Source of the DNA: Chitinophaga filiformis
Lineage (GTDB): Bacteria; Bacteroidota; Bacteroidia; Chitinophagales; Chitinophagaceae
Reading direction: 5' to 3'
NCBI RefSeq assembly: GCF_900102545.1
Contig: NZ_FNBN01000010.1
Location: 186,001 to 250,000 of the forward strand
Length of the DNA stretch: 64,000 bases
The position numbers were made by a program, and so were the translations under genes. The notes under the pieces are model-generated. The model ran no database searches, was not told the DNA's origin, and saw only the letters and a program-made list of their open reading frames with translations. Positions 4,593-64,000 of this stretch are shown one piece after another; the first letter of the stretch is position 1, and the number at the start of each line of letters is the position of its first letter.

Positions 4593-6215
4593 TTACAGCG
4601 CTGTAGCGTTTTCTTTCACTTTACTATATAATATCTCCTTTTCGCCAAATAAACGCTCTGCAATAACGCCTACACCAGCGCAATATTCAACGAGTTTATT
4701 GGATTGTACAATCGGGTGTGACTCAGGCGTATATTTTATGCTGCTGATAAATTCCAGCCAGGGTTCCTGTCCCATTGCATATACATACATCTCAGAAGGA
4801 TGGAATATCTCTACCAGCGCCCTGCCCTGTTCAAAATCTGATCCGGCAAAGCGACGTGTCTGATCCATATCCCTGTTCAATTCTTTGGTCATAAGCGGGC
4901 CATATAACCAGGTCAGCGGAGCGCCCTCACATTCCATTCCCAGGAATATTACATCCACGTCGCCTACTGCATCATGAATGTGCTTATATAGTTCTGACGA
5001 TACATTGCAGGAATCTGCCATAAACAACATCGTAAAAGCGCCCAGCTTTACATGGTGGCAGATCTTTGTCTGGATGTTCAGGTCACCATGTTCGCCGATA
5101 AACGGAAGCCCGGTGATACTGCAATCATGGAAACGGATGGTTTGCATATCCTCGATCTCGATCACATTATTAAACCCAATCGAATTGAACATATAGCGAA
5201 GGTTTGGATCCTGCAAGGAACCGCTAGATGTACGGGGTACCACGATGTTGCCGATCTTATGCCTCAATGGCAGCAGGGTTTCAAACAAGATATGGTCCTG
5301 GTGGTTATGAGTGATCAGCACATAATCGATATGCTCAGGGAGATCCATATCAGAGAAGCGGTCTACTTCCTGGGGATAACCATAATAGCTCACCACCGGA
5401 TCGATCAGGATGCTTACATCCTTCGTCTCAACCAGGATGCAGGCGTGCCCGAAATAACGCATCCTTACCTTATTGCCCGTGTAAGGTTTATATGGCTGAG
5501 GAGGTGTATCTGTGAAGAAAGTAGAGAACAATGGCATATCCTCTTCTTTCACACCCAACAACTTCGCAATTTCTGATACAGAGCCAGCCTCGCGCTTCAT
5601 CCTGGACAATTTATCAATCGCACTATCTTTAAAAGGAATATCCAGATGAATTACGCCGGGCTCGTTCAGACGAGGGGTACTTAATACAAAAGGACGCTCG
5701 TCATTATTTGTAATACTGATAGCAATACTCTGCGCTGAAGGCTTATAATATTTACTCTTATACAACAGCGATTCAAAGATCCTATAGGCAGGCTGGTTAT
5801 TGAGGTCGTACACCAGTTCTACATACCCTTTCAGTATTTCAGGGATCTCTCTGTACAATGGTTGCAGGGTAAATCCCTTCGCTTTGGTTATCAGCAATTG
5901 ATCCAACTCCTTCAGGGCATCTGAAAGCTCCACCAGTTCTTTGTGTTCAGTTAGTGTCCTATCGCGTAATGCCTTCACTTCGTCCACTCTTCCACCACCC
6001 AGATCCATGAACGGGCCCCCACGCATTTTAGGGTTCTTCACGGCAGCCGCATGTATCTGAGGCGCCTGTATATACGAGTTCATGATCTTAAGATGCCTGC
6101 CGGTAATGTTCATGGCAGCTGTTGCTGGCGAAATCAAATGGCTCCAGGCATACCAGCGGTCAAACAGGGGTTCCAGGATCACATTTGGCAACAAATACAT
6201 TGGATTCTCATTCAT
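4593..6215 (-). CDS. CmlA-like di-iron beta-hydroxylase (metallo-beta-lactamase fold), NRPS tailoring enzyme
   Basis: A 540-residue protein with an N-terminal domain (1-245, including GRHLKIMNSYIQAP and YVELVYDLNNQPAYR) joined to a metallo-beta-lactamase-fold domain (250-540). Visible metal-ligand candidates are H303-N-H305-Q-D307-H308, E375 in GEHGDL, D401 in FMADSC, E428 in GMECEG and H472 in FHPSE. The length and two-domain layout match CmlA, the di-iron monooxygenase that beta-hydroxylates p-aminophenylalanine while it is bound to a carrier domain in chloramphenicol biosynthesis. The candidate ligands fall, as I recall the CmlA structure, at nearly the same positions. Plain MBL hydrolases lack this N-terminal domain. 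By analogy it would hydroxylate the beta-carbon of a carrier-bound amino acid; the two Phe modules are the natural candidates, but that is inference. It starts 34 nt after the exporter gene and is the last gene of the apparent operon. Confidence 0.82.
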   Translation of the reverse strand: MNENPMYLLPNVILEPLFDRWYAWSHLISPATAAMNITGRHLKIMNSYIQAPQIHAAAVKNPKMRGGPFMDLGGGRVDEVKALRDRTLTEHKELVELSDALKELDQLLITKAKGFTLQPLYREIPEILKGYVELVYDLNNQPAYRIFESLLYKSKYYKPSAQSIAISITNNDERPFVLSTPRLNEPGVIHLDIPFKDSAIDKLSRMKREAGSVSEIAKLLGVKEEDMPLFSTFFTDTPPQPYKPYTGNKVRMRYFGHACILVETKDVSILIDPVVSYYGYPQEVDRFSDMDLPEHIDYVLITHNHQDHILFETLLPLRHKIGNIVVPRTSSGSLQDPNLRYMFNSIGFNNVIEIEDMQTIRFHDCSITGLPFIGEHGDLNIQTKICHHVKLGAFTMLFMADSCNVSSELYKHIHDAVGDVDVIFLGMECEGAPLTWLYGPLMTKELNRDMDQTRRFAGSDFEQGRALVEIFHPSEMYVYAMGQEPWLEFISSIKYTPESHPIVQSNKLVEYCAGVGVIAERLFGEKEILYSKVKENATAL

Positions 6216-14388: not shown

Positions 14389-14403
14389 ACCTACAGGCTT
14401 AGA

Positions 14404-15312: not shown

Positions 15313-15325
15313 AACATTATAAGCA

Positions 15326-18300
15326 TTAATTGAGGTCGAAAAACAGGTCCTTCCTTGCTTTTTCCCTGATAGCTTTTCCCATGATGGATTGCTTCAGTGA
15401 GAGTAAAGTCTCATGGCCGGCTTCAGGGAGAGTCAACATTATCTTCTTCAGATATTCCTGCATCAAATGGATACGGGACTCATTAAACAGCGTAGAGGCA
15501 TACTCGATGGACACAGTAATACCCTGCGCATCTTTCGTGAAGATGAAGGAGATATCATATTTACTGACAGCATACCCGGCATCCAGTTCTGTTAATACCA
15601 GTTCCTGTCCCTGTCCGTCTGGTATGTCGTTGCTATGTTGTAATGTCACCATTACATCAAATACAGGAGAATGCCCCGGAGGCACAGGCGCGGCAAGATC
15701 TTCCACCAGTTGATCAAACGGGTATAACTGGTAACGGAAACTATCCAGCACTGCTTTCTTTACATCAGCCAGCAACTGATCAAAAGTATTCTCCGCGGCT
15801 CCGCCCACCCGAACAGGCAGGATATTGACCATGAACCCGAGTACATGCTCGAGGTCAATATGATTTCTTCCTGCCACCGGGGAACCTGTTACGATATCAG
15901 TTTGTCCGGTATAAAAATATAAGAGCAGTTGTACGATCGCCCTTACTCCCATAAACATGGTAATATCTTTTTCCTTTAACCAGGCATCTACTGCGCGGCT
16001 AGCATCCTCTTCCAGCCGGAAAGACATCCATTTTCCTTCAGAAGAACGCTCTGCCGGACGCGGATGGTCCAAAGGTAATTGCAGGCGGGGTACACCTGTT
16101 TTGAAGACGTCCATCCAGAATTTCCGGTGTTCCTTTAACAGGGCTCCTCCCAGCTGTTTATTTTGCCAGGCTGCATACTCTTTATATTGTACGCGAAGCG
16201 GTGCATGACTTGTCTCCATACCATTACAGTAAGCAGTATAAGCATCCAGCAGCTCGCGTACAAAGATGTCCATAGACCAGCCATCCATGATGATGTGATG
16301 GAAGTTTAATACTAGTACATGATCTTCTTTTCCCAACTGCAGGATCTTAAAATAGAAGAGCGGTCCTTCTTCCATATCGAATACCCGGCTTCCCTCGCGG
16401 GAAGCGATCGCCTTAGCTGTTTTCAGTGGCTGGTCACTATCAGACAGGTCCTCAAAATGCGTCACTGGCTGGAAGTATCCCGGAGCCTGGACCACTTGTA
16501 CAGGTTCATTTTCCACCTTGTGGATAACCGTACGCAGCACTTCATGTCTTTTCACCATATAAGCAAATGCCTTTTCGAGGGCAAACCTGTTCACGGCGCT
16601 TGCAATACGATAAGCATGGGGAATGTTGTAGGCAGTACTGTCTTTCTCCAGCTGTTGTAATATCCAAAGCCTTTTCTGGGCGTGTGAGATGGGATAGTAT
16701 GGCTGCTCTGGTAATACGTTGATATTCTCAAATCCCCCCTGCTGCATTTTGCGAATAAATGCTATCTGTTGTTTTAACACAGGATGCTCAAATACATCTT
16801 TCAGGTCCATATAAATGGAAAACTGCTTTTGCACCCTCGATATCAATTGGATCACTTTTAAAGAGTGCCCCCCCATATGGAAAAAATGCTGCTGACTGCT
16901 GACAACTGGAACACCCAGGATCTCACTCCAGATGGCAGCCAGTTCCTTTTCATCCTGATCTGTTATTGTTTCCTGCTGACCGGTGGGCTGACCTGTTTCC
17001 GGCAGCAGCTTTTTATCCAGCTTTCCATTATTGTTCAGGGGTATCTTTTCGATCCAGGTGAAGAAGGAAGGGATCATATAATCAGGCAGCACAGCAGCCA
17101 GTTCCTCTCTTATTAAAAATTCGCTGACAGGTTCTGGCGCCACATAATAAGCTTTCAACACGGTAGTACCTGTAGTGTGGTCCTTATCTGTAATAACCAC
17201 CGCATCCTGAAGTATCTCCAGGGCTTTCAGCTTATTAATGACCTCTCCCACTTCTACCCGGTGGCCACGGATCTTTACCTGTGCATCCTTTCGTCCCAGG
17301 AATTCAAGTTGATGATCTTCATTCCATCTGCCATAATCTCCTGTACGATATAGTTTTTCACCATCTTCAAAAGGAGATGGTACAAAGCGGACATCCGTTA
17401 ATTCCTGGTTATACAGATATCCTTTTGAAATTCCTTTTCCGCTCACGCATATTTCTCCCGGCATACCTTCAGGTACCAGGCGGAGATGATTATCGAGGAT
17501 ATATATGCTGGTGTTAAGCAAAGCATTGCCTATTGGTACGATGTGGCTCACCTTCTTTCCTGCCGCAAGCTCATAGGCGCTGATACACACGGAATATTCG
17601 GAAGGACCGTAGGCATTAAAATACCTGAATTGTACAGCGTACTTCATTACGTCTTCCGGATAGGCTTCCTCTCCTGCCGTGATCAGAATGCGTAAAGTTG
17701 TGGCCTCGTGGATCGCTATGCTTTTTACATATACCGGCGGTAATGTAGCGATGGTCACCTGCTGCTGGTTAATATATCTGATAAATTCAACGGCGTTGTT
17801 GATCTTATCTTTTGTGATCAGCTCCAACGTAGCGCCGGATAACAATGCCATAGTGATCTCCCACACGGAAGCATCAAAAGATAATGAAGCAAATTGCAGG
17901 ATATGATCATCCGGGCCCGGGCTAAACAATTCCATTTGTGACCTGAACATGTTTACCTGCCCTTCATGGGTGATCATGACGCCATTAGGCTTGCCGGTAG
18001 AACCGGAAGTATAAATGATATAAGAAAGATCCTGAGGAGCACTTACCACAGGAAGATTATCGGTCTTCGCTTCCCATTCATTCAGCTCTATATCAATAGC
18101 TACCAGTGACCGATGATAATATTCCATCACCGTGAATAATGCTGAAGAATCAGTGATCAACAGGTTTACATCTGTATGCGCTAATATATCGCGGATACGT
18201 TGTGCAGGATAGCCCACGTCAATGGGAACATATACACCTCCGGCTTTCAGTATGGCCAGTATACTGATAACAGACCATTCAGACCGTTCTATTATCAAAG

Positions 18301-35300: not shown

Positions 35301-38300
35301 GTATCTGCTGATAAAGGATATCATCTTCCATCAGGAAGGTTGTGCGCAGGCTTTCATGCCGTGCAATCAGACCGGCAAAAGCCTTTTCCAGTGCAGGCTT
35401 ATGCAGCTCGCCATGGATGTATACAGGTGCAGTGATATTATATGCTGTACTTCCTTTCCCCAACCGGTCCATGAACCACAAACGTTGCTGGCCATTGGAT
35501 ACTTCGTAATAATCTGATTCAGGTAATAAAGGAATAGCCTGTACGCTGGTATTATCTATCTGCTGAATCACAGTAGCTAATCTGGCAATAGTAGGTTGAT
35601 CGAACACTACCCGGATATCCACTTTCACACCCAGTTCCCTGGCGATCTTCGAGATCACCATCACTACCTTCAGCGAATGTCCCCCCAGCTGGAAAAAGTT
35701 ATCATTCACGCCGATATGCTTTACATCCAATACTTCTTCCCAGATCGCTACCAGCCTTTCTTCCAGCAGTGATGAAGGCGCTACATAACCACCAGATGCA
35801 CCTCCATGTGGCTCAGGTGAAGGAAGGGCTGCTTTATCCACCTTACCGTTCACCGTAAGCGGCAGATGATGCAGGGCGATAAAACGGGAAGGCAGCATAT
35901 AATCCGGCACCCTGGCCTGTAATTGCTGCATAAGGCTTTCTTCAGCTTCTACCCCTTTCCAAACCACATAGGCTACCAGCATCTTTTCGCCCTTGCTGTC
36001 TTCTGCCACGATCACCGTACTGGCCTGCACGGCTTCACATTCATCTATCAACTGCTGAACCTCTCCGGGCTCTATACGATGCCCACGTATCTTTACCTGA
36101 TCATCCATCCTGCCCATATAAGCGAGATCGCCATCAGGCAGCCATTTTCCTTTATCTCCTGTACGATAGATGCGTTGCCCCGTATAAGTACTGATAGTAA
36201 ACTTAAGACCGTCATCTTCCGGCTGGTGCAAATAACCCTTTCCGACGCCCGGACCAGCTATCGTTATTTCACCGGGAATTCCGGGAGGTTGCAATCTGCC
36301 ATACTGATCCAGTATGAATACCTGCGTTCCTTCAATAGGTTTGCCAATAGTAATACCGGAAGGATAGAATGGAATCTCCGACACTGTACAGCCTACCGTA
36401 GTTTCTGTTGGACCATACTCATTGAAGATGCGAACAGCCGGATTGATATTGCGCAGGATCCGTATCTGCTCTATGGTAAGCGCCTCACCTCCTACGATCA
36501 CATGGCTCACATCTGTGCGCTGTATATTCAGGAAAGGCAACAGGTTAATATGAGAGGGGGTTAATTTTACAGCCCTGATATTACTTCCCTGGTCAAATAT
36601 CTCGTGCAAGATATCACCGGTCTCATTCCCTCCCATGATATAAAGCGTATCTCCCCTCATTAAGGTTGAGAATATACTGGTAAGGGTAAGATCAAACCCT
36701 ACTGCGGTAAAGAATGGGAATGAGAACCCGCTGCTATTATAGAAATAATACTGATTGGCCCATCCCAGGTAATAATTAAAATTCCCCCTGGTAATGGCGA
36801 CTCCTTTAGGCTTTCCTGTGGATCCAGAGGTAAAGATCACATAGGCCAGGTCTGCTGGCGTAACTGCTACCTGAGGATTGGTATCATCTGTATCCAGATC
36901 TGCCATTTGTACATCCAGGGCTATCAGATGGCCACTGAAGACTCCCATCGCGCGGAACATCTCATTCATATCTGTGATCAGCACTACAGCTGCTGTCTCC
37001 TGCAACATATAACTGATACGATCCTCAGGCAATACAGGGTCAATTGGCAGGAAAGCTGCTCCCGCTTTCAATATACCCAGCATAGCGATCACCGTCCATT
37101 CTGAACGCGCCATCCATATGGCCACACATTGTCCTGGTTGTATACCTGCTTTGATCAGGTAATTGGCCAGACGGTTAGCTTGTGCATTGCACTCCTGATA
37201 ACTCAACTGATGCTGACGGATACTAAATGCCGGTAAGTCGGGAGCATACAGGACCTGTTCTTCGAAACAGGCGATCAGGTCTTTTTCAGCAGCAATTAAA
37301 CCGGCGGGTGCCTCCAACAACTGCTGGCGTTCCGTAACATCTGTCAGTTCAATATCACCAGCTCCCAGGCTATGGTCTTTCATCAGCTGGTCCAGGATCA
37401 GGGTAAACCTGCCGGCAATATCGCTGATGAAAGCAGGGTCATAGACATGTTCATTGTAGGAAAAATGAGCCGTCAGCTGACGACCGGGAACAAAGGTGAT
37501 ATACAGATCGTAGGTTGTTTCTTCCTGATTGGAAGACAACGCTATTGATAGATCTGTATCAGCATTGGTTTCTTCAAACGGGAAGTTCTCAAACCCTATG
37601 AAATGATCAAACAATACTTTCCCAGGTCCCGCAGCAGCCTGAATATCTGCCAACTGGGAATACTGGTACATCTGTGATTGCGCCTGTTCATATTGCACCT
37701 GGCGACACAGTTCCATCAGCGACCGGTTCCCTTTCACCTGCACCCTTACAGGGATCACATTAATAAATAATCCTACGATCCTCTCTACATCTTCTATTTC
37801 AGGTGGCCTGCCGGAAACAACCACACCAAATACGACGTCTTCCTGCAAGGAATAACGTCCCAATAAAGTAGCCCAGGCTACCTGCACCACGCTGTTCAAT
37901 GTCAGCTGTTCGTTAGCTGCCAGTGCTGCCAGTGCCGTCGTTTTTTCAGCTGATAGCTGTATGGTGTGCTGTGCTTTTTTATAAGCATGCCCCTTTTTCT
38001 TTTTCCCGGGTAATGTAGCCAATGAATCATATCCGGAAAGATATTCCTGCCAGTATTTGTCCGCGCCTGTTTTATCTTTCTCCATGATCCAGCGGATATA
38101 CTTACCATAAGGTACAGCTGTATGCGCTGTCACTTCCTTCGTGCCGTACAGTTCCATAAACTCATTGGCCAGTATGGAAGATGACCATCCATCCATGATA
38201 ATATGATGATAACTCCAGTTGATCTCATACAGTTCTTCTGCCAGCTTCAATACGCTTACCCGCATCAGCACATCATGCACGAGGTCAAATCCTCTTTCTT

Positions 38301-41300
38301 TATCTGCATAGCGGAGGGATGCTGCTGCAGCCTCCACATCTGTCTCTGCTGAAAGATCAGTATATACAAAATCAACTTTCCTTTCTTTGAGAATGACCAT
38401 TACCGGTTGTCCGACAGTTTCATCCTCAAAAAGCGCCCGCAATATCTCATGGCGCAGGAATAGCAGATCAAATACCTGCTGCACTTTTGAAGGCACTAGT
38501 CGTCCCTTCAACCGATAGCTTTGCTGCCGGAAGTATGCATCATCTGACCGCGAGGATTGCTTACTATGGAAAAACAATCCTGCCTGTAACGGAGAAAGTG
38601 GTAAAACATCATCAACAGGATACCGCTGTTCAAGCGAGTGAATAATATGGTCAGCGAGCCCCGTCAGTGTGTACTTATAGGCTACCGTTGCAGGCTTATT
38701 ACAGGCATGTGCAATATCCAGCAATACTAATCTGATCTCTTCTCCAATACGTTGAATGGCTTTCCTGCTGAAACGGGCCATATCATAATTGAATTCGACC
38801 GTCAGCTGCGCACCACTCAGCACTGATGTAATATTCAACGGGAAGGCGCCCTGGTTTTCCGGATCACTTTCCATACCTCTTTCCTCTTCAGCAAATTGGA
38901 ATGGACCATCATCCTCACCGGTATGGAATTGTCCCAGGTAGTTGAAGCAAACCTGCGGTACATTATTCAGGGGTTGATTGTCCAGGTATTTCAGGATACC
39001 ATATCCCACACCTCCGGAAGGGACCTGCGCTAAAGTATGTTTAGTTGCCTTTAAAAGTGCGATAGGATCTGTTCCCTTTTCTGCATCGAGTACCAATGGA
39101 TAAATACTGGTGAACCAGCCTATTGTTCTGGAAATATCCATCCCCGGTATAATATCTATACGACCATGCCCTTCCACTGCCAGCGCTACTTTTTTCATAT
39201 CGTATACCAACGAAAGACCTTTGGATACAGCAGCCAGCAAGGCTTCATTCATCGTAGCGTCACAGCGTTCATGCAATCCGGTGCGTAATAATTCTGTCAC
39301 AGTAGTATCCAGTGTAAAACTGAGACTATCTCTCTCTACAGATCCATCACCAGCCTTCAATGGAATCCCGGCAACACTTGCTGCTTCATCCTGTGCCTGC
39401 CAGTAGGAAAGCTCTTCCTTCACCACGGGAGCTGTTGCATATTGTTGTAAGGCTGCAGACCATTGCAGCCAGGCATTGGATGGCGTGCCTAATGTCATCT
39501 GATCTTTTCTCTCACTTTGTGCTATCAGCGTAGCCATATCCTCCAGGAAGATGCGCCATGATACGCCATCTGTAATTAAATGATGCATCACGATCAACAA
39601 ACGATCCGCATCTGCCATTCGGAATAATCCCACACGCAACAGAGGGCCTGTAGTAATATCAAAAGATGCCTGTAGGGCATTCGCATGTTTTCTTAATTCA
39701 GCAAAGGGATATGCTACTTCCCGAAGATCAGTTTCCTCCAACGTAAAAGGAGCATACTGTCCTGATACCACCTGCATCCATTGCTGGTCTTCTTTACGAA
39801 AAGTGACCCTGAATACATCATGATGTGTGGTAATAGTATCAAGTACCGCTTTTATAAGCCCTGTTTCAAACCGTCCCTTTAAAAGCACCGACTGATTAAA
39901 ATGATGTACATTTTTGAGCGTTCCATGTAACAACCATGATTGTACAGGAGTAAGACCAGCAGCTGCAACGGTCTCATAAGATGTCATATTTTCAGATTGT
40001 CCCACAGCTGTATTTTTAATCAGCTGTTCCAGCTCTGGATATCTGAACACATCAAAGACCCTGATAGCAATACCTTCTTTCAACAGTTTTGATACGAGCT
40101 GGATAGCCTTTATAGAATCGCCGCCCTTACGCAGGAAATTATCACGAAGGGATACAGGATCATAACGCAACACTTCTTTCCATGCTTTGGCAAAAATAAG
40201 TTCACGTGGAGAGGAAGGTTCTGATATGGCGCTTCCTTCCTGTACCTGCAGTCGAGGATCAGGTAGTTGTTTCCTGTCTATCTTGCCATTGGGTGTCATT
40301 GGAAACTGCGCAAGATGGATCAATACAGCAGGGATCATATAAGCGGGAAGAAAGCGTTCCAACTGTTGCCGGAGACTGACCGCCTGCAGCTCCTGTCCTG
40401 TGTAATAGGCAGCCACGTGATCACTGCCATCATGTTTGTAAGTGATCACTAAAGCATTGCCGATACCGGGTATTCTCTTCAACACCTGCTCTATTTCCTG
40501 CAGCTCCACTCTATATCCCCTGATCTTTACCTGGTGATCTTTTCTTCCTGTGAATACAATATTTCCATCGTGTTGCCAGCGTGCAAGATCACCCGTTTTG
40601 TACAGGCGCAGGCCTGGCACCAGCGGATGAGTAATAAATTTCTCTGCTGTTAAATCAGGAGCGCCAATGTATCCTTTGGCCACACCGGCGCCAGCTACAC
40701 AAAGCTCTCCCTGCACACCAGCCGGCACTACATTACCAGCTTCATCCAGTATATATACCTGGTTGTTGGTAATGGGTCTTCCTATTACAGGAAAATCTCG
40801 GAAATGGCTAACACTGGTGGCATCAATGCGTGTAAAAACAGTGCCAATGGTTGTTTCAGTAGGACCATAGTGATTTACGAAAATGCAATCAGGATGGGCA
40901 GATAAATATTTTTCAGGGAAAGCAGGAGATAGCATTTCTCCACCGGAAACAATCAGGCGCAGGGAAAATCCCGCTACTACCTTCTCAAATTCAGGATGGT
41001 TCACTATCAATCCAAGATGGGAAGGCGTTAGCTTTATATAAGTGATCCGATTTTCTGTAATAGCGTCTGCCAGCGTTTCCAGGCTCCACTGCTCTGAATC
41101 CGACAATATGTACATTTTTGCACCTGCATACAGGGAAGACCACAAAGTAGTATAGACCAGGTCAAAAGCAATGGAAGAGAAAATAAGTGTGCTGTCATTC
41201 GCATTGATGGAAAATTCGCGTACAAGCCACTGCAGGTAATTTGCAAGATTAGCATGTGTAACCTCTACTCCTTTGGGTTTGCCGGTGGTACCGGAAGTAT

Positions 41301-43059
41301 AGATACTATAGCATACCATCTCCGGAGATACTATTATCCCGGGGGTAGTAGTAGCATATTTTGCTGCTGCCGCCAGCAAGGCAGCAGGGGTTGTTACAAC
41401 AGTGTGGTCACTGGTATGAGCCTGAGCAGTGATTAGCAATTTTGCATGACTATCTTCAATGATATACTGTAAACGCTCTCCAGGTAATGTCATATCTGCC
41501 GGCACATAACTGCCACCAGCTTTCAGGATACCCATTAATACCACCATCATATCCGCACTACGTGGTAACTGTACGACAACCTTATCACCGGGTTGTAAGC
41601 CATGGCTTTCTACCAGACAATGTGCCAGCTGATTGGCCTGCCCATCCAGCTGCTGATAAGTGAGGGTAGTATCTTCATACACAACAGCTATTCCTTGAGG
41701 GCGCTCTTTTACCTGTGCCATCCATGCCTCCGGCAAAGTCTTTTCAACAGGTACACCGCTTAGTTCTTTACTAAAATGATGTACAATAGTCTCATACTCT
41801 CCGGGGAAAATATCCTGTGCTTGAGCTACGGTAGTTATACGACCACTCACTACACCAGACAACAGCTCTTTCAGGGAATCCACCAGTGCATGTACATTCA
41901 CTGAAGGCACATTCTCAGGCTCATAATAGCACACCAGTGAAAGACGATCTGTACCTTGCTGACAATTCAATGCCAGTAAATTCCTGTCAGCATAACTATA
42001 TGTATCACCTATACGATACTTTGTACGCCACGCAACAGGTATCCATGTCCGCCCATCTGTAAAGCCAAAACCAGCTTTCGTAAAGGAATACGCTCCTTTC
42101 AACAGGGAGGTAACTTCATCAGGTGCATACATATCCTGCCATTGCCTTATTTCTTCCAGTTTACCGGCCAGTAAGCCGATCACTTCCAACACAGACTGTT
42201 CCCGGCTGATAGCTACCCGTAGCGGCAATATCTGCGCAAAAGGACCACTGATCTTTTCAAACGCTTCATAACTCCGGCAACTTTCTATCTTCCCCAGATC
42301 AGGATCAGCATGGGCCGTATACCTGCCCAGCAACAAATACCAGCATGCCAGTAATACCTCTTCAGTCTGCAACTGTTGCTGATCACAAAAGGCATGCAGT
42401 TCCTGCAATAAACTGCCGGTAATGCCTGTTGTATATGTAGCCGGATGAACAGGTGGTTGATGCAGCGTATTGGCCTGAAAAACATATCGCTGCTGCTGAA
42501 TGTCATTATCTTTCCAGAAAGCACGTGCATCTTCATCACCTTCTTCCAGCAACTGATTGTGCCATTCCGAATATTGGATATATGATGCTACGTTATCCGT
42601 AGCAATGTCTTCCCCGGTCTCATACCACGCAATCAGTTCTTCGACAATATGCTGTAGTGTGATCAGATCTCCGGACATGGCTGATATACCCAATACCAGG
42701 ACAGATTGCCCGTTTTCTGCTAATAACAGCGTTGCCGCTATTGTTGCTTTGCCGGCAACAATTTCCCGGATAGCAGTACTTACTGCTTCATCAAGTGCTG
42801 TAACCGATCTTATTTCCAGGATAAGCTGCATTTCCTCCGCCACCTGCTGACAGGCAAACGCTACATAGGGGCTGCTGACAAATGCTGTCCGGAAAATATC
42901 ATGCCGTGATACAATGCGGTTCAGGGCTGTGGCCCAACGTGCTTTATCTGGTGTACCAGACAGGTAGATACTACATGCATGGCCCATTCCTTCCTGTCCG
43001 GCGGCAGCCAACGTCATTAGCCTCCTTTGTAAAGGAGAAACTTGAAATATATTTTCCAT
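32365..43059 (-). CDS. NRPS D: interface domain, A-T-E (beta-OH-D-Asp), C-A-T (Asn), C-A-T (Ile-like)
   Basis: A 3564-residue synthetase. Residues 1-420 are a condensation-fold domain whose HHxxxDG motif reads SAMSGDL (126-132), so it should not catalyse condensation. It fits the interface domains that accompany TauD-type beta-hydroxylases in siderophore NRPSs. The A domain that follows (about 445-940) has code DLTKVGHIGK, the textbook Asp code. Its T domain (KGGDSIKA) is followed by an E domain (HHLITDG, EGHGR, FNYLGQF). Module 2 has a DCL-type C (LPLSPLQAGLFFHS, HHIIMDG), A with DLTKIGEVGK (Asn) and T LGGHSLKV. Module 3 has C (HHIVSDG), A with DGDFIGVVYK (nearest to Ile codes but with Asp at position 239) and T IGGHSLKA. 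The protein ends after the T domain, for transfer to NRPS E. It lies 19 nt after NRPS C, whose C-terminal hydroxylase it should partner. Confidence 0.95.
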   Translation of the reverse strand: MENIFQVSPLQRRLMTLAAAGQEGMGHACSIYLSGTPDKARWATALNRIVSRHDIFRTAFVSSPYVAFACQQVAEEMQLILEIRSVTALDEAVSTAIREIVAGKATIAATLLLAENGQSVLVLGISAMSGDLITLQHIVEELIAWYETGEDIATDNVASYIQYSEWHNQLLEEGDEDARAFWKDNDIQQQRYVFQANTLHQPPVHPATYTTGITGSLLQELHAFCDQQQLQTEEVLLACWYLLLGRYTAHADPDLGKIESCRSYEAFEKISGPFAQILPLRVAISREQSVLEVIGLLAGKLEEIRQWQDMYAPDEVTSLLKGAYSFTKAGFGFTDGRTWIPVAWRTKYRIGDTYSYADRNLLALNCQQGTDRLSLVCYYEPENVPSVNVHALVDSLKELLSGVVSGRITTVAQAQDIFPGEYETIVHHFSKELSGVPVEKTLPEAWMAQVKERPQGIAVVYEDTTLTYQQLDGQANQLAHCLVESHGLQPGDKVVVQLPRSADMMVVLMGILKAGGSYVPADMTLPGERLQYIIEDSHAKLLITAQAHTSDHTVVTTPAALLAAAAKYATTTPGIIVSPEMVCYSIYTSGTTGKPKGVEVTHANLANYLQWLVREFSINANDSTLIFSSIAFDLVYTTLWSSLYAGAKMYILSDSEQWSLETLADAITENRITYIKLTPSHLGLIVNHPEFEKVVAGFSLRLIVSGGEMLSPAFPEKYLSAHPDCIFVNHYGPTETTIGTVFTRIDATSVSHFRDFPVIGRPITNNQVYILDEAGNVVPAGVQGELCVAGAGVAKGYIGAPDLTAEKFITHPLVPGLRLYKTGDLARWQHDGNIVFTGRKDHQVKIRGYRVELQEIEQVLKRIPGIGNALVITYKHDGSDHVAAYYTGQELQAVSLRQQLERFLPAYMIPAVLIHLAQFPMTPNGKIDRKQLPDPRLQVQEGSAISEPSSPRELIFAKAWKEVLRYDPVSLRDNFLRKGGDSIKAIQLVSKLLKEGIAIRVFDVFRYPELEQLIKNTAVGQSENMTSYETVAAAGLTPVQSWLLHGTLKNVHHFNQSVLLKGRFETGLIKAVLDTITTHHDVFRVTFRKEDQQWMQVVSGQYAPFTLEETDLREVAYPFAELRKHANALQASFDITTGPLLRVGLFRMADADRLLIVMHHLITDGVSWRIFLEDMATLIAQSERKDQMTLGTPSNAWLQWSAALQQYATAPVVKEELSYWQAQDEAASVAGIPLKAGDGSVERDSLSFTLDTTVTELLRTGLHERCDATMNEALLAAVSKGLSLVYDMKKVALAVEGHGRIDIIPGMDISRTIGWFTSIYPLVLDAEKGTDPIALLKATKHTLAQVPSGGVGYGILKYLDNQPLNNVPQVCFNYLGQFHTGEDDGPFQFAEEERGMESDPENQGAFPLNITSVLSGAQLTVEFNYDMARFSRKAIQRIGEEIRLVLLDIAHACNKPATVAYKYTLTGLADHIIHSLEQRYPVDDVLPLSPLQAGLFFHSKQSSRSDDAYFRQQSYRLKGRLVPSKVQQVFDLLFLRHEILRALFEDETVGQPVMVILKERKVDFVYTDLSAETDVEAAAASLRYADKERGFDLVHDVLMRVSVLKLAEELYEINWSYHHIIMDGWSSSILANEFMELYGTKEVTAHTAVPYGKYIRWIMEKDKTGADKYWQEYLSGYDSLATLPGKKKKGHAYKKAQHTIQLSAEKTTALAALAANEQLTLNSVVQVAWATLLGRYSLQEDVVFGVVVSGRPPEIEDVERIVGLFINVIPVRVQVKGNRSLMELCRQVQYEQAQSQMYQYSQLADIQAAAGPGKVLFDHFIGFENFPFEETNADTDLSIALSSNQEETTYDLYITFVPGRQLTAHFSYNEHVYDPAFISDIAGRFTLILDQLMKDHSLGAGDIELTDVTERQQLLEAPAGLIAAEKDLIACFEEQVLYAPDLPAFSIRQHQLSYQECNAQANRLANYLIKAGIQPGQCVAIWMARSEWTVIAMLGILKAGAAFLPIDPVLPEDRISYMLQETAAVVLITDMNEMFRAMGVFSGHLIALDVQMADLDTDDTNPQVAVTPADLAYVIFTSGSTGKPKGVAITRGNFNYYLGWANQYYFYNSSGFSFPFFTAVGFDLTLTSIFSTLMRGDTLYIMGGNETGDILHEIFDQGSNIRAVKLTPSHINLLPFLNIQRTDVSHVIVGGEALTIEQIRILRNINPAVRIFNEYGPTETTVGCTVSEIPFYPSGITIGKPIEGTQVFILDQYGRLQPPGIPGEITIAGPGVGKGYLHQPEDDGLKFTISTYTGQRIYRTGDKGKWLPDGDLAYMGRMDDQVKIRGHRIEPGEVQQLIDECEAVQASTVIVAEDSKGEKMLVAYVVWKGVEAEESLMQQLQARVPDYMLPSRFIALHHLPLTVNGKVDKAALPSPEPHGGASGGYVAPSSLLEERLVAIWEEVLDVKHIGVNDNFFQLGGHSLKVVMVISKIARELGVKVDIRVVFDQPTIARLATVIQQIDNTSVQAIPLLPESDYYEVSNGQQRLWFMDRLGKGSTAYNITAPVYIHGELHKPALEKAFAGLIARHESLRTTFLMEDDILYQQIHPVDTFNFNIGYNDLLTVEHKEAAAIRILEEAMNTSFHLEKGPLFRVQLVQLQQQKSLLIISMHHIVSDGWSMEIMIHELRSLYLSFVTGIPANLDPLPIQYKEYAAWQNLQLRESHMQDHRNFWLQKLEGELPLLELPTDVSLSKEQSSEGRTVKILFSQQESEILHKLGEEHQASLFMTLVTAVKALLYYYTGQQDLIIGIPVSGRDKAELESMIGFFVNMLPIRTKIGDEDTFSALLEKVRFNILEAFDHQVYPFDRLVEELDQPRNNFHSPVFDVIISLQHSLFTNNHTAVPGDIHIEPFELPSNLSKYHLSFNFSATDEQLQLELQYNTGLFHDDRIRNMISHLKQLFLSVAANTHIPLQDINYLSPREMTILESFSGNTPFPYPSTASIHSLFEATANQYPEATAVVCEDRTLSYRMLNSLTNKMARALRTTFGAKVQDRILLRMQPGENMLACILAVLKAGGTYVPIDPAYPDENVRFIMEDAGAVLQIIDGDKEGTLSVAALLAASETYPDDNGVCDVTADDIAYIIYTSGSTGIPKGVMVPHRGVVRLVTGNVVPRTVYGKQALLASSFGFDGSVDSIYDTLLHGGTLHIVSKDLLLSIAALEEYIKQQRIETMFIPTALFNLLIEHAPAIGRTMDWIIFGGEEASVWHVRKCLAEAGPQFVLYNVYGPTENTVYSTICAMTDVSQPVTIGKPVSNTSVFIFDKGLRPVPVGVDGEIYLGGAGLAAAYLKRDELTKEKFIVHQGMRLYKTGDKGRWSPTGDVIFRGRIDRQVKIRGFRIEPGEIEYAIKQLPGIQHVTVAVQGAGIEKALVAWLVMEPGMPAPDLKQALAERLPFHMIPAAVAVIAEVPLNVNGKVDLSRLPAPEMAPLKQYVPPVTATEQLLAGIWEDVLGIRPIGIHDDFFDIGGHSLKATQIIARIVKMTGLHIDLRKFFGQPNICQLAMLMDQLQSEAPVATAARGEQEVEEFFL
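41800..43059 (-). other. Interface-type (non-catalytic) condensation domain of NRPS D
   Basis: Residues 1-420 of NRPS D keep both lobes of a C domain (opening QVSPLQRRLMTLAA, then SRHDIFRTAF) but have SAMSGDL instead of HHxxxDG, losing both histidines. Published work on siderophore aspartyl beta-hydroxylases defined an interface domain of this kind, proposed to hold the hydroxylase against the carrier-bound Asp. Here it directly precedes an Asp-coded A domain and directly follows, across a gene boundary, a TauD domain. The assignment rests on this context and the lost motif. Confidence 0.78.
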
Positions 43060-43078
43060 AGATCTGTTCTGTGAAGGA

Positions 43079-44107
43079 TTACGCTATAGGGGTAGACTGT
43101 GGGTTAAACATGGCAACCGCTATCTTTCTGTTGCCTTTATAAGGGTTACGACCGTGCGCCATTAACATGTTGTCCAGTAGCAATGCATCTCCCTTCTCCC
43201 AGGGAAACGAGATCTTCGCTGCTTCAAACGCTGACACGATTTCCTGTATGGTAGCTGCTTCTACCGGCTCGCCATTCCCATAATAGGTATTGAACGGTAA
43301 TTCTCCGGCGGCCGATAACACCTCATACATGGATGACTCTATCATATGCTCATTATAAAAAAAGCAATGATTGAACCATACTTCTTCCTGTGTAAGCGGA
43401 TGCTGTTGCACAGCTGGCAATGTCCATTCTGTATGTAAATGATCATCGCTTTTCCATTCGTATGCGATCTTATTGGCAATAAAATGCTGCGCTGCTTTTT
43501 CTTTCTCATTGGTCTGGAACACCTGTTGCCAGGAAAGTCCTACTCCCGGCCGCATGTTCCGCACATATTTTACACCGTTGGCCCTGAACTTACGGCGTGT
43601 TTCTTCACTTAATAACTTCCATACCTGCCTCACGTCTGCTACCGGCGTTTCACCTCCTTCTTCAGAAGGTATGAGACAACAGAACATAATATGCAAAGGC
43701 CATTGAAAAGAATAAGACAGTTCATTGTGCATATGTATCACCTGATCACTCGGATGATCTGTAGAGGTATATAATGCACCTGTCAGCGCACTTCTGGGAG
43801 AGGTCTGGTCAAAATAGCGCAGCTGTTGTCCGCTAAAACTATCAGCAGTTTCCTGCACCCGCTCATTGGTGTCTACATTAAACCCTCTGAATAATATACC
43901 GCCATATTCAGCCAGCCACTTATCTACAGTTGCTCTGTTACTATCCAGCCACCTTGGAAGATTCACGCCCGGCATAGCTGCTGTTACCAGCTTCAGGCCA
44001 CCACCATTTCCAGGGATCACAGACTCGCGGATGATGCTTTTTTCTGCAGCAGGCTGCGTCTGAATGTTAAAGAATTTTTCAAGATTCTTTTTCTTGGTTT
44101 CATTCCT
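43079..44107 (-). other. TauD/SyrP-type Fe(II)/2OG beta-hydroxylase domain fused to NRPS C
   Basis: The C-terminal 340 residues or so of NRPS C show the HxE...H facial triad (H1721, E1723, H1912) and R1921 for 2-oxoglutarate. GGILFRGFNV is the typical TauD/TfdA opening, and WEKGDALLLDNMLMAHGR the typical closing strand. An acidic second ligand Glu rather than Asp is common in SyrP-like enzymes. C-terminal fusion to an NRPS is the arrangement reported for the interface-associated aspartyl hydroxylase subtype, which as I recall gives L-threo beta-hydroxyaspartate before any epimerisation. Confidence 0.88.
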
Positions 44108-47100
44108 GTTCATTGTAGTTAATTTTTTATGCGCTGCCACCAGCATATCTGTGATCAAATGGATCTCACTATCGGGCTGATGAACAAAATGATGGATCAA
44201 CTGACCCAGGTCGTCTGTCATTGAGCTGGCCGTTTGTGGCCTGAAAAGTCCTTTATTGAATGACAGCACTACGCCGATGGCGCCGGCCGTATCTTCCCAT
44301 GCATGTATCCAGCAATCAGATTTTACAGTGCCGGCACCGTCTGTATAGGGAAGTACCGTGTAGTCGCCTTGTTCATACACCTGCTCCACATCTCCATGCC
44401 CAATGGTATTCAACCAGGTAAATCCTACATCAAACAATGGCAGGCGGTTCTCATATCGCTCATATTGCAGTTTGCTGAGCAGGAGGTCAAAAGGGTAATC
44501 CTGGTGATCAAATGCATTCAGCGTATTTTGTTTCACCTGTTCCAGCAATTCCCTGAAGGATATATTAGCATCTAATTGTACACGTAGGGCCAGAGTATTC
44601 ATATAACACCCGATCTGATCTTCCAGCTGCAAATGGTTCCGCGCCGCTACGGGTGAGCCTATGACCAGGTCTGTTTGCCCTGTATATCTGTATAAGAAAA
44701 CATAGATAGCGGACAACAATATCATATAGGTACTGGAACCTGTGGCGGTTGCCAGCATCTTTATTTTCTCTGCTGTTACCAGGTCCAGCTCCAGCTTGAA
44801 ATCTATTGCCTCAAATGTCTTTTTCTCTGCCCGGGGAAAGTCTATGGGAAGTTCCAGCATTGGTACAGGTCCGGCAAATTGCCGCAGCCAGTATTGCAGT
44901 TGTTCTGCCGCTATAGTACTACGGAGGAACGATTGTTGCCATACCGCATAATCTTTATACTGTAAGGAAAGTGGCGACAGGGAAGGCGCTTCCCCTTTCC
45001 TGAAGTGATCATATAATAACACGAGCTCATTCAGGAAAATATCTTCTGACCATCCATCTGAAATAATATGGTGCGATACCATCAGTAGCAGGTATTGTGT
45101 GGCTGTTACGGGCAAAATATCCACACGCAACAACACTCCTTTCTCCAGGTCAAATGGTTGCCATACAATATCATTCACGGTAATAGCCTCACCTATTGCA
45201 TGTACGCTGAAATATGGCGCCACTTCCGCCATGGGGATCACCTGCTGATAGGGAATACCGTCCAGTTCAAAGAAGCGTGTCCTGAGTATTTCATGCCGGT
45301 CGATAATAGTGAACAATGCCTTTTCTAAAGCAGCAGTATCCAGTTGTCCGTTAAATACATACTTCATCGGCATGTTATACGCCATACTGTTCTCATATAG
45401 TCTTTCCGAGATCCAGATGCGTTGCTGGGCATTTGACAGCGGATAATAAGTAGCTTCCGGTGCAGGTTGCAGCGCAGGCAGCTTTTCCACAACAGACGCT
45501 TCGATCAGTGCCGCCTGCTGCCGGATGGTAGGGTTAATAAAGATATCTTTCAATGCCAGTCTCACTCCGAGGTCATGATAGATCCTGGAAGTCATCTGTA
45601 TTGCTTTCAGCGAATGGCCTCCGCTCTCAAAAAAGTTGGAGTGTACACCGATAGCTTCCTTGTTAAGCACCTGTTTCCATATCTTTTGCAACTGCATTTC
45701 CAGGTGTCCTTCCGGCAGGGCCAGCACTTCTGTTGCTGTGATCTCATCAAGTCCGGGCAGGGCTTTTCTATCTACTTTGTCACTCAATCCTGTAGGGAAC
45801 TGTTCCATCACTACATATACCGGCGGCACCATATGGTCTGGCAGTTTCTCTGCCAGGTATTGCCTGATGATTTCGATGAGCTGCCGCTCGCTCATCTCCT
45901 GATCTGCCGGGAGCAGATAAGCAACTAATTTCTTTTCTCCCTCTTTTCCCGGTTGCAGCAATACGACGGCATCCTTTACAAAATCATGCTCCCTGCATAC
46001 GCTTTCAATTTCTGCTACTTCTACTCTGAAACCCCGGATCTTTACCTGCTGGTCTATCCTTCCACCAAATTCCAGATTCCCATCCGGCAGCCATCTTCCC
46101 AGATCTCCTGTACGATATATCCTGTCGCCCGCAGTTCCTTCAAAAGGGTTCGGCACAAATACTTCTTTCGTTTTTTCCGGCAGGTTCCAATACCCCACGC
46201 CTACACCTACACCGGATACACATATTTCACCATGATATCCAAAAGGTACCAGCTGCAGCTGTTTATCTACCAGGAATATATTCAGGTTGATAAAAGGTCT
46301 GCCAATAGGGACTTTTGTTATGCCCGTCCGCAATGGTTCATAAATGAGCAAATGTGTAATATCATCAGAGGCTTCTGTAGGGCCATATGCATTCAGTACA
46401 TTGACATGCGGATATAATCTTTTCCAGCCATTTACCGCGTCTACAGTCACTTCTTCTCCTGACAACATCATCCATTGCATATGCTGTAGCGGAGGACGGC
46501 TGTCTGGATAACGCTCCATGAAAGAAAGCAGCTGGCTAAAGTAAGACGGTACAAACTCTGTCATGGTCACTGCCTGCTGATCTAATATCTGCAACAGGCG
46601 ATCATACACCTGCAAATCTTCCTTATCCACAATCACACAGGCGCCTCCCAACATCCAGGGAGCAACGAATTGCCATACTGATATATCAGAAGAGATATTG
46701 GCGCTTTGCAGGAAACGGAAGCCATCTGGTAATGACAGCGCATGGAACTCATTCATCATATGGTTCAGCGCCCCGTTATGTCGCAGGATGGCCCCTTTTG
46801 GCTTTCCGGTAGTGCCAGATGTATAGATCATATATGCCCAGTCTTCCGGAGTGGAAGGGCCATCCACATTTGAGGTGGACATCTGGCGCCATGCTGATTT
46901 ATCGAATATGGGATAAGGTAATACCGTTGTCCATTCATCCATAAGGATCAGCACTTCCAGTTGAATCTGTTCAAAACAAGGCAACTCCCGTTGCAAAAGT
47001 GCTGAATTGGTGATGACTGCAAAAGGGGTAGCATCTTTCAGCAACAGCTGTATGCGGGACGAAGGGTTACCATGATCAACGGGTACATACACGCCCCCTG

Positions 47101-61400: not shown

Positions 61401-64000
61401 CCACGTAGATAAGCAACAACCGCCATAGCGGCGACTGCTCAAGCACAAACGGACGTGCGGCGGCTGCAGCACAAAGTTCTTCCGGATGCGCAGAATACCA
61501 TACTTTCTCTACCGCCGGTTGAAAAGTACTTGCGTCCTGCACCTGCATATAAGGTGCGCCATCTATTTCAATAAATGAAGTACGCAGGATATCGTATTGC
61601 CTGGAAATAATGTCGAGCGCTTTGAACAACGCCGCCTCATCTAGTTTGCCGTTGATCTGAAAGGCCAGCGGAATATTATATGGCGCCTTTCCTTCTTCCA
61701 ACCGGTCAATGATCCATAATCGCTGCTGGGCGGGAGAAACAGGATAATAAGCCGCCGAAGGTGCTATAGGAATTGATAGAACAGGTACACCTGTTTGCTG
61801 ATCAATCCTGGCCGCCATGTCCTTCAGTACGGGGAAAGTAAATATATCGTTCAACTCAAGCTTTACCTGTAACTGCTGAATAATGACTGATAACAGGCGG
61901 ATAGCACTCAAGGAATGACCTCCACGGTCAAAGAAATGATCATGCAACCCTGCATGGTCTATCTTCAATACATCTTTCCACATTACAGCCAACGCTTTTT
62001 CCGTGGCCTTAACGGGTGCAATGTATTGTTGTATATCTTCCGGATCGGGCAATTTTGTTTTATCGATCTTACCAGCGGTATTCCTTGGAAAATGTTTCAC
62101 TACCACCCATTTTGAGGGCAGCATATAAGCTGGTAGTTGTGCCGACACGAAAGTTTTCACCACTTCCGGCGACTCTGCTGTTGTCATGCGCAGATAAGCC
62201 ACCAGCACAGGTACACCATCAGCACCATTATCGGCCGTTACATAAGCTTCAGCCACTCTGTTGTCTTTCAGAATAGCCAGCCTTACTTCTTCCGGCTCAA
62301 TACGGTATCCCCTGATCTTGACCTGCTGATCCATTCTCCCCAGGAATTCCAGCTCGCCCTGCTCATTCCATTTCACTTTATCGCCTGTACGATATAAGCG
62401 CCGCACACCGTTGATTTCAAGACTTACAAAAGCCTGTTCCGTAGCAGCTTTATTATTGATATATCCGGCTGCAATCCCCTGCCCCGCAATACACAATTCT
62501 CCTGCCATACCCAATGGCAACAAACTCCCTTCCCTATCCACGACAAACACACTATAGCCGGGTAATGCGCTGCCAATAGGTACTGAGGTCGTTACATGAT
62601 TTATCCGGTATCCGGTGGCGTTGATACATGTTTCCGTAGGCCCATACAGATTCATAAATACTGCTTCAGGCAATTGCTTCCGGATGTCGGCCGCCAGCCT
62701 GGAAGACAATACATCTCCACCACAAGAAATATATTGCAGGGGGACTGATGGCAATAACGGCAATAATGCTTCCCAGTAAAGTGGAGATGCATGCAGCACA
62801 TTGATATGGTGTTGCTGCAGATAATCTGCCAACTGAGGGATGTTACGATAATCAGGCGGTAAGTGCAACGTACCCTTGTATGCCAGCGGCAGGAATATTT
62901 CCTTGACGGCTGCATCAAAGGATAAGGAGGCATTCAATATATAATGTAATCCCGTTCCGAAGCCCATTTCATGTTGCAGGGATGCCAGCAGCTGACATAC
63001 CTGGACATGTGTAATAGCCACTCCTTTGGGATGACCAGTGGAACCGGAAGTATAGATAATGTAGGCGGCTGTATCAGCTGTCACTACCGGCAATGTTGTA
63101 TTTGACGGATACAGGTTTCTTTCCCCTTCCCACCATTCCATTTCCAACACCGGTATACCAGGAATGGATACGGGCACATTACTGATCGTCAATACAGCCT
63201 TTGCATCATGGATCATATAAGCGATCCGCTCTGCAGGATATGCTGTATCTATTGGCAGATAAGTGGCCCCTGCCTTTAAGATACCCAGTATGCTGATGAT
63301 TGCCCATTTATCATGTGTCATCAGCAGGGCCACCACATCACCCGGGCGAACACCTGCCACGCCTGATAAATAGCCAGCCAGCCTGTTGGCTTCTTCTGCC
63401 AGCTCTTTGTAAGTGATCTTATCCTCTTTATCTACCAGCACTATACCATGGGGGCGTTCCTCAACCGTCTGTTCAAACAGCTCATGTAACAGCTGGCCTT
63501 TCACAGGTATCTGCTGCGCTTCGCCGGATAATGCATAAAGGTGTGCAAGTTCTTCATCCGAAAGCATCGCACTTTGCAATACGGGTTTCCCCGGTTCATG
63601 TAGTAATGAAGATAATATCCGATCCAGGTGTAATGGCAACTGGTCCAGTAAATGCCCTGGCAGTATACCTTCCTGATAATATAGCTGCCATGGCTGATCC
63701 TTGAGTATCACCAGTGCCAGTGCTGCCCTTTCCGTACAGGAAGGAATATCATGCAGGCTATCATGTGCGATCCCCACCTGATAATGAGCCGTCCGCACAG
63801 GTAAACCATTCGCTTCAAACAGTTCATCCAGTTTCCCGGCGTTATAATCCTGGTGCTGCAGGGCTGTTTTAAACGCAAGGGATAAGCCATTGACCATTTC
63901 CCTGAAAACAGTATCCTTATGAATGTCAAACCGGAAATACAGCTGCTGTCCTTTCTCTGCCGGTACAGGCACCGGGCCACCCACCACAGGCGGCATGAAC
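55432..64000 (-). CDS. NRPS A (5'-partial): (C)-A-T, C-A-T, C-A-T (third Orn-like)
   Basis: At least 2854 residues are visible. The frame is open to the window edge and the first visible Met (63996) is internal, so the true start and most of the first C domain lie outside. Residues 1-155 are the last third of a C domain. A1 (about 165-660) has code DAKHICLINK, which I cannot assign; T1 is RGGHSLSA (S695). C2 has HHIIADG. A2 has code DVSSLALIYK, also unassigned; T2 is LGGNSLLA. C3 has HHIAIDIWS, with Ile where the motif normally ends in Gly. A3 has code DVGEVCSIDK, close to the Orn code DVGEIGSIDK. T3 is IGGNSLKA, followed by a short acidic tail. Whether the cut C domain is a lipo-initiating starter or a normal elongation domain cannot be decided here. 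The gene is the first of the visible operon. Confidence 0.93.
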   Translation of the reverse strand, partial: FMPPVVGGPVPVPAEKGQQLYFRFDIHKDTVFREMVNGLSLAFKTALQHQDYNAGKLDELFEANGLPVRTAHYQVGIAHDSLHDIPSCTERAALALVILKDQPWQLYYQEGILPGHLLDQLPLHLDRILSSLLHEPGKPVLQSAMLSDEELAHLYALSGEAQQIPVKGQLLHELFEQTVEERPHGIVLVDKEDKITYKELAEEANRLAGYLSGVAGVRPGDVVALLMTHDKWAIISILGILKAGATYLPIDTAYPAERIAYMIHDAKAVLTISNVPVSIPGIPVLEMEWWEGERNLYPSNTTLPVVTADTAAYIIYTSGSTGHPKGVAITHVQVCQLLASLQHEMGFGTGLHYILNASLSFDAAVKEIFLPLAYKGTLHLPPDYRNIPQLADYLQQHHINVLHASPLYWEALLPLLPSVPLQYISCGGDVLSSRLAADIRKQLPEAVFMNLYGPTETCINATGYRINHVTTSVPIGSALPGYSVFVVDREGSLLPLGMAGELCIAGQGIAAGYINNKAATEQAFVSLEINGVRRLYRTGDKVKWNEQGELEFLGRMDQQVKIRGYRIEPEEVRLAILKDNRVAEAYVTADNGADGVPVLVAYLRMTTAESPEVVKTFVSAQLPAYMLPSKWVVVKHFPRNTAGKIDKTKLPDPEDIQQYIAPVKATEKALAVMWKDVLKIDHAGLHDHFFDRGGHSLSAIRLLSVIIQQLQVKLELNDIFTFPVLKDMAARIDQQTGVPVLSIPIAPSAAYYPVSPAQQRLWIIDRLEEGKAPYNIPLAFQINGKLDEAALFKALDIISRQYDILRTSFIEIDGAPYMQVQDASTFQPAVEKVWYSAHPEELCAAAAARPFVLEQSPLWRLLLIYVEGGVVGMLTFHHIIADGWSMHVFTDTLLSLYKDIATGKSPLHQPLSLQYKDYAVWMRENMQSEKMLAAQRYWEGEFEKGVTPVALPADNTRPLVKAYQGHAIYTSFPADLADKLQRFSQQQEVTPFVILLAAFRLLLYRYTAQPDIVIGVPVSGREQGALDQQIGFFVNILPVLLHITEEDNFHTLIQREKAHLLESYRHQDYPFDKLVEILKIERDSSRSPLFDVMFGSWPGNELMDKALLPDQQLSSFEMPVTTSKYDLLLNVETVEGNYRIYTEYDTALFSEMRIRQMMDHYLLLLDAALDHAADTITSLDYITTAEYNTLLNDFQSQRLVYPYHPSLYHLFMHQVALVPGRKAVIADEGTLDYATLSGKVNQLAAALIAHGITPGQPVGIIMKRSSVLLISILAIHKAGAFYVPLSPSLPIHRISYILQDAAVKVVLTDADLVTVVENEADVLIPELLLAATYEGEEVPAQTGSLAYMIYTSGSTGEPKGVAITHQQVMNTLWALQELYPSGEEDTWLLKTNYTFDVSVSELFGWIPGGSKVAILREGEEKELHLLLEAIRRKKITHISFVPSLFTLFFDTLKTDKEAFRLLRYILIAGEAFPEKLVMAIHAGGWAEKVFNLYGPTEASIYTTAFALEDYQEGKPVYIGKPLPNVKVYILDANDRLVASGVYGELCIGGPGVSNGYWNNPALTAARFTRDPFGEGILYRSGDLARWSNDGNIEYLGRKDEQVKINGYRVETGEIEHVLEKAPGIRQAIVVKKTDHAGNARLIAYVTTDGVADTTSLSVFAGQWLPSYMIPVMYVVLDVMPVSSSGKIDRKALPDPDFSVGSEEGSYTPPEAPSQEQLARLWSQLLSVDKPGIHDNFFRLGGNSLLAIKLSAAIRKEYNVVLAVKDIFRFPTIAQLDTFMGTLKKDSTQLVAAAAHGPLPLSFSQERFWLLDKWGQGATYHIPVVLRLKGDLNIAALENALSVVIQRHSALRTLVREKNGIPFQHIVDAASWKLTITEDIRFSDSAYLDTYIHAFVYNAFDLSVDLPVRGSLLKINPQEHLFLLTFHHIAIDIWSVYLMGDEIGRLYKDGAAQLELLPVQYADYALWQRRQMETGELAQRLQHWKEELKDIGPLEMPADHIRPAVNEYNGNTYRAVINPEITTRIRQLAAGYNTTLFVALLSVFKVLLHRYTGKQDIAVGVPVANRDLEDVSSLVGCFINTIVLRSQVKPDMPFEQLLQELSRHAAIAYAHQDVPFEMVLEQLGGSGDRNALFEVMFDLQDMPASTPLELDGIAIEEVKFQRTKAFFDLNFALSTDRINGTIILDVEYNTALFEAARIEQLVNHYITLLQSVIQDQQCLVGNMQLLTVADHVMLTTFSGEKVVFPQTNSILDMIREQGVQHPDRMAVLFNDRGISFRQLEEQSNQLAHYLQEQGIQKEATVAIWLNRSVEVVVAMLGILKAGASYLPIDPAYPPERVAYMLEDAAATMMITDSPDVVKENILVIPVDQLPVIMSRYSPDPVATDIHPQQLAYTIYTSGSTGQPKGVMIAHRNLVNITYGWRWKFDLDKQRTVVLSLASIAFDVFTGDLCRALPNGGTLVIADTRNLDWGELYSVMQKHQVTYIESTPAVITNLFSHIDKHSLDISFLRVMVSCADALPAEKYIYLRKRFLSSRLRVLNSYGITETTIDCSGYEQDTPIIGITPIGRSLPNIFYYILDEQQQQVPVNVWGELYVGGDGVGIGYRNKPVLTAERFINIMIGGEMKRVYKSGDIARWTPDGNVVFGGRRDDQVKVRGFRIELSEIVNNLLQYPSVKSAVAVVHATPGNTAEKYICAYYVADDNTVESPTVSALRNFLQDKLPHYMVPQYFIRLDAIPVTSNKKVDKKRLPLPETAGLQSGQEIVLPANEVESTLYTLWTDVLKGVPFGVTDNFFEIGGNSLKAVQLLALINEQCFTDIKMRTFIASPVIRELSQHVIRFYEEQKELFEEALEDGAGDQA

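Follow-up and report, generated by a model that had tools for sequence, protein, structure and literature searches.

The junction between the NRPS proteins P0001 and P0002 is a real, well-supported interface-type junction, at which a protein ending in a TauD hydroxylase domain directly precedes a protein that opens with a non-catalytic C-fold domain and an A domain for Asp. It is likely that this is a beta-hydroxylation junction at which the docked TauD domain hydroxylates the Asp of P0002 and an epimerization (E) domain then inverts C2. The junction belongs to a known kind, of which the E domain is the one less common feature.

Organization of the junction

Most of the NRPS assembly line is encoded on the minus strand of the window, i.e. 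the whole stretch of 64,000 nucleotides that was analysed, and every gene and domain of the junction lies on that strand. P0001 (43079-48889) has the domain order C-A-T-C-TauD and P0002 (32365-43059) the order [C-fold]-A-T-E-C-A-T-C-A-T; the two genes are separated by a gap of 19 bp (43060..43078), in which no terminator-like site was found. As the original prediction had stated, P0001 ends in a C domain and a TauD domain. The C domain is of the active type (LCL type, 44156..45445, HHIISDGW); the TauD Fe(II)/2-oxoglutarate dioxygenase domain (43082..44089; Pfam PF02668, 1.1e-43) retains the residues HNE...H...R of the Fe(II)/2OG site (HxE...H...R), conserved in 63 of 63 aligned TauD domains. 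P0002 begins with a domain (41764..43059) in which HHxxxDG is replaced by SAMSGDL and which profiles, trees, an AU test and a C-fold model identify as an interface domain. It is followed by an A domain with the Asp code DLTKVGHIG(K) (40264..41721), a T domain of the GGDSI type (40015..40203), an E domain with its motifs HHLITDGVSW and EGHGR intact (38689..39951), and a C domain (37357..38601) that a tree places in the DCL clade. The replaced motif, the Asp code and the succession of T and E domains had likewise been read correctly; the range originally given, 41800-44107, covers the TauD and interface domains, whereas A-T-E follows outside that range, to about 38689.

The P0001 TauD domain is 66% identical to its orthologue in the orthologous cluster of genome G282. 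It shares with IbetaH_Asp enzymes the C-terminal fusion to an NRPS after a C domain, and groups with other interface-associated TauD domains in a genus-specific clade, apart from the two clades that have been characterised. Since the characterised proteobacterial clade does not include it, it is termed IbetaH-like here, not IbetaH_Asp.

Identity of the N-terminal domain of P0002

The N-terminal domain of P0002 was assigned to the Condensation superfamily by Pfam (Condensation) and by comparison of its model with PDB structures. It reads ISAMSGDLI where the active C domains of the window read, for example, MHHVISDGW, and it is positioned after the hydroxylase and before the A domain of the residue that would be hydroxylated. 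Against profiles built from 28 proteobacterial and 3 cyanobacterial interface domains it scores 151 and 159 bits, respectively, compared with 74 bits against LCL, 70 against DCL and 13 against E profiles, and the pattern is reversed for genuine C, DCL and E domains encoded in the window. A short motif tried as a general marker of interface domains (CR-x-YE, also in looser forms) held only in part and was rejected.

Placement in a phylogeny of C-domain subtypes had been proposed together with the prediction of an interface domain in place of an active LCL or DCL domain, and in the resulting trees the domain groups with interface domains instead of active LCL or DCL domains. In a 91-row tree it falls with interface and N-terminal degenerate domains (39 rows, SH-aLRT 94), all C and E domains being on the other side (52 rows); in a 63-row tree from which the longest branches were omitted, support for its place on the interface side is 96 (SH-aLRT). 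An AU test on the 63-row tree rejected placement of the domain and its orthologue on the C/E side at p=0.029, which is only moderately strong. The domain shares only 18-24% identity with its proteobacterial counterparts, so that long-branch attraction could inflate the grouping with them.

An AlphaFold2 model of the domain has a complete C-domain fold (pLDDT 77, pTM 0.77), and its tied best PDB matches are an X domain (6m7l; Z 33.6, 393 residues, 3.2 Å rmsd) and C domains. The X domain of glycopeptide NRPSs, likewise a C fold without catalytic function, is known to recruit an oxygenase, but its partners are P450s that cross-link a carrier-bound peptide in the last module. When the orthologous clusters are compared, this N-terminal domain of P0002 is the least conserved (41%; 49-66% in the other domains), as might be expected if it were a decayed, functionless C domain retained by chance. 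Such decay is nevertheless extremely improbable: the domain is full length with a predicted complete C-domain fold, it scores with interface profiles of distant phyla, and its G282 orthologue retains a very similar replaced motif (VSATAGDLA).

Distribution of the layout and context of the cluster

Pairs of an interface domain and an IbetaH_Asp enzyme in siderophore NRPSs were reportedly described by Reitz et al. in 2019. Among genome contigs retrieved with a TauD alignment and annotated plasmids, 73 reference loci have a TauD-ended protein directly before a protein that opens with a non-catalytic C-fold and an A domain. At these loci, as at the junction, an active C domain precedes TauD, which is either fused or encoded separately, and a T domain follows the A domain; because the loci were selected for TauD similarity, the count describes a regularity among fused TauD enzymes, not an NRPS-wide frequency. 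The reference organisms are mostly Proteobacteria (70/73 loci) and include Variovorax boronicumulans, Cupriavidus and many Pseudomonas; the A codes are DLTK[VI]GH[VI]G (Asp) in 70/73, with GEVG in two and one incomplete. In the genus of the window (79 genomes), a non-catalytic or half C-fold comes next at 21 of the best 30 TauD loci, the window's included, where TauD is either fused or a separate gene and the A codes are for Asp or Asn, or Gln-like for two half domains. A TauD directly before a non-catalytic C-fold-A protein was also seen in cyanobacteria, and the codes are mostly for Asp or Asn. Since it recurs at the 73 reference loci and at 21 of the best 30 TauD loci in the genus, the layout of the junction is not due to chance.

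For the hydroxylase and the interface domain to belong to separate proteins is the rule; this is the standard arrangement in Proteobacteria, and it occurs also in cyanobacteria, in the genus of the window and in potashchelin. The novelty that the original prediction attached to the split was therefore rejected on the survey of reference loci and the published potashchelin order (PMC7100376), while the interface identity, the Asp and the D residue of that interpretation are supported. In potashchelin, C-TauD of PtcB is followed by C-A(Asp) of PtcC, and L-threo-beta-OH-Asp was assigned in the adjacent module (PMC7100376). The junction described here resembles this pair and those of taiwachelin, cupriachelin and variochelin in having a C-TauD protein end before a non-catalytic C-fold-A(Asp)-T start. 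It differs from them in that P0002 has an E domain and two further modules, the reference I-A-T proteins being nearly all single-module and without E, and in that the P0001 TauD domain falls outside the characterised clade.

The cluster has a second Asp module in P0005 (24406..28839, minus strand; A code DLTKIGHIG, then T and E), and TauD enzymes in such clusters are often free-standing, so that TauD might act in trans on this Asp, or on the residue of P0001 itself, with the interface domain a structural remnant. This is improbable given that TauD lies directly before a non-catalytic C-fold-A protein, mostly for Asp or Asn, in Proteobacteria, cyanobacteria and the genus of the window, whereas the P0005 module is preceded by an ordinary, active C domain (MHHIISDGW) and has no interface domain. 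The same property makes the P0005 module an internal control for the idea that an interface domain marks which residue is to be hydroxylated.

A second hydroxylase in the cluster is possibly encoded by a CmlA-type diiron beta-hydroxylase gene (4593..6215, minus strand; PF18456 CmlA_N, 1.2e-95), which lies at one end of the cluster with genes of a type II thioesterase, a cyclic-peptide export ABC transporter and an outer-membrane barrel. CmlA-type enzymes are known for aromatic residues, and it is TauD, not CmlA, that is positionally tied to the interface module in unrelated clusters, making it very unlikely that the CmlA-type enzyme hydroxylates the Asp and that TauD has another role. In favour of that assignment are the presence of the gene in the cluster and the crediting of CmlA-like genes for Asp, Phe and Ile together in the chitinopeptin paper (PMC9248904).

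Beyond the window, the cluster continues with a further NRPS (C21:252615-265058), upstream of which are SbnA, SbnB-like, carbamoyltransferase and NusG-type genes. It is a lipopeptide-type cluster like those of the chitinopeptins (Chitinophaga lipopeptides), which are an instance of beta-OH-Asp made by Bacteroidota, and it has the accessory genes of that family (SbnA/SbnB, CmlA-type enzyme, ABC exporter; PMC9248904), the SbnB family score being just under the cut-off. Unlike the chitinopeptins, which have 14-16 modules with three Asp positions (PMC9248904), it has 17 A domains, the first, ligase-like one excluded, and two Asp modules. The solved chitinopeptin contains three (2S,3S)-beta-OH-Asp residues, and the paper makes no mention of TauD (PMC9248904).

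The genome of the window has a second NRPS/PKS cluster with two TauD genes (G000:C11:383000-422999), in which three proteins open with a degenerate C-fold before A domains of Asn, Asn and Asp code. Another assembly line (G308:C8:443471-524999) combines three TauD genes with three Asp modules, of which two carry a full interface domain and one a half domain, and several of its proteins begin directly with an A domain; it was considered as a chitinopeptin cluster and rejected, as its A codes seem not to fit the published composition.

Two further proteins of the window's cluster begin with the C-terminal half of a C domain. P0004 has such a half domain before A(DAKHSGLIN) (window 63751-64000 and C21:250001-252559); genes for a Cupin_8/JmjC oxygenase and for an aminotransferase are located upstream, and a C domain closes the preceding NRPS. 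This gene order is shared by G282, where the half domain is 42% identical. At window 13639-16696, an active C domain closes P0006; next come the methyltransferase-like gene P0008 and then P0007, whose A(DLFNNALTY) is preceded, at the start of the protein, by the C-terminal half of a C domain; G282 is without P0007, and there the end C domain of the P0006 counterpart lacks HHxxxDG (FDQMIADSH). P0007 also has a C domain followed by a segment in which no A domain was recognised, by a T domain and, at its end, by a C-like domain with VQHAIGDGG (window 8647-14388). Profile scores did not assign the half-length C-fold remnants of P0004 and P0007 to the interface family.

Epimerization and the predicted product

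In the proposed mechanism, the C domain at the end of P0001 would couple the upstream peptide to the Asp of the A-T-E module in P0002, and so serve as the condensing domain of that module. The non-catalytic interface domain of P0002 would receive the TauD domain of P0001 and bring it to the carrier-bound Asp, of which TauD would hydroxylate C3; the E domain would then invert C2, and the DCL domain would take the D residue. What is seen at the junction are the domain identities, the motifs kept or lost, the Asp code and the conserved gene order; we infer that TauD docks and hydroxylates the Asp, that this step comes before epimerization, and what the resulting stereochemistry is.

The E domain is the unusual part of the P0002 interface module. 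Of 73 interface modules at the reference loci, 72 showed no E domain: L007 runs on into a C domain, and the other 71 proteins consist of a single module. The sequence of the remaining one, L129, ends before the T domain. In the genus, the other TauD-adjacent interface modules that were read through are followed by an LCL domain, by the end of the protein or, once, by a DCL-type domain. The orthologous cluster of G282 keeps I-A(Asp)-T-E, and at C11:400421 in the genome of the window a weak interface-like domain with an Asn code is followed by T and E, with no adjacent TauD.

Because a functional-looking E domain and then a DCL domain follow the Asp module, a D residue is expected, in agreement with the configuration originally predicted, and the product at this position is most likely D-beta-hydroxyaspartate. 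It would be (2R,3S), D-erythro, if TauD is 3S-selective, a 3S hydroxylase followed by E giving D-erythro, and (2R,3R) if TauD is 3R-selective. The 3S selectivity is conditional, since the P0001 TauD domain lies in a genus-specific clade outside the characterised ones; it would be plausible if the chitinopeptin hydroxylases belong to the same clade, because chitinopeptins contain (2S,3S)-beta-OH-Asp. For most lipid siderophores the potashchelin paper lists L-erythro, L-threo and D-threo, and D-erythro is not among them (2020, PMC7100376). The P0002 module resembles modules with TbetaH_Asp and E (bokeelamide BkaM, and the D-threo-beta-OH-Asp of other siderophores) in combining TauD and E for Asp, but there TbetaH is free-standing, the products are (2R,3R) or, in bokeelamide, L-erythro, and their description includes no interface domain. 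Bokeelamide, which keeps L-erythro despite its E domain, shows that E can be silent in a beta-OH-Asp module.

As the synthetase also has a C domain at a protein end, a tailoring gene and a C-fold remnant before A in succession for a JmjC/Cupin_8 oxygenase and for a methyltransferase-like protein, interface-like junctions may be a general point of entry for tailoring enzymes. The full combination, in which such junctions generally admit tailoring enzymes and interface-guided 3S hydroxylation followed by E yields D-erythro-(2R,3S)-beta-hydroxyaspartate, is put forward only tentatively and is rather unlikely to hold as a whole.

Thus, the hydroxylase-interface layout known from siderophores of Proteobacteria occurs frequently in the genus of the window. 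With an interface module that has an E domain and an Asp module without an interface domain in the same synthetase, this cluster is a clean test case for a possible role of the interface domain in selecting the Asp to be hydroxylated and in setting its stereochemistry.
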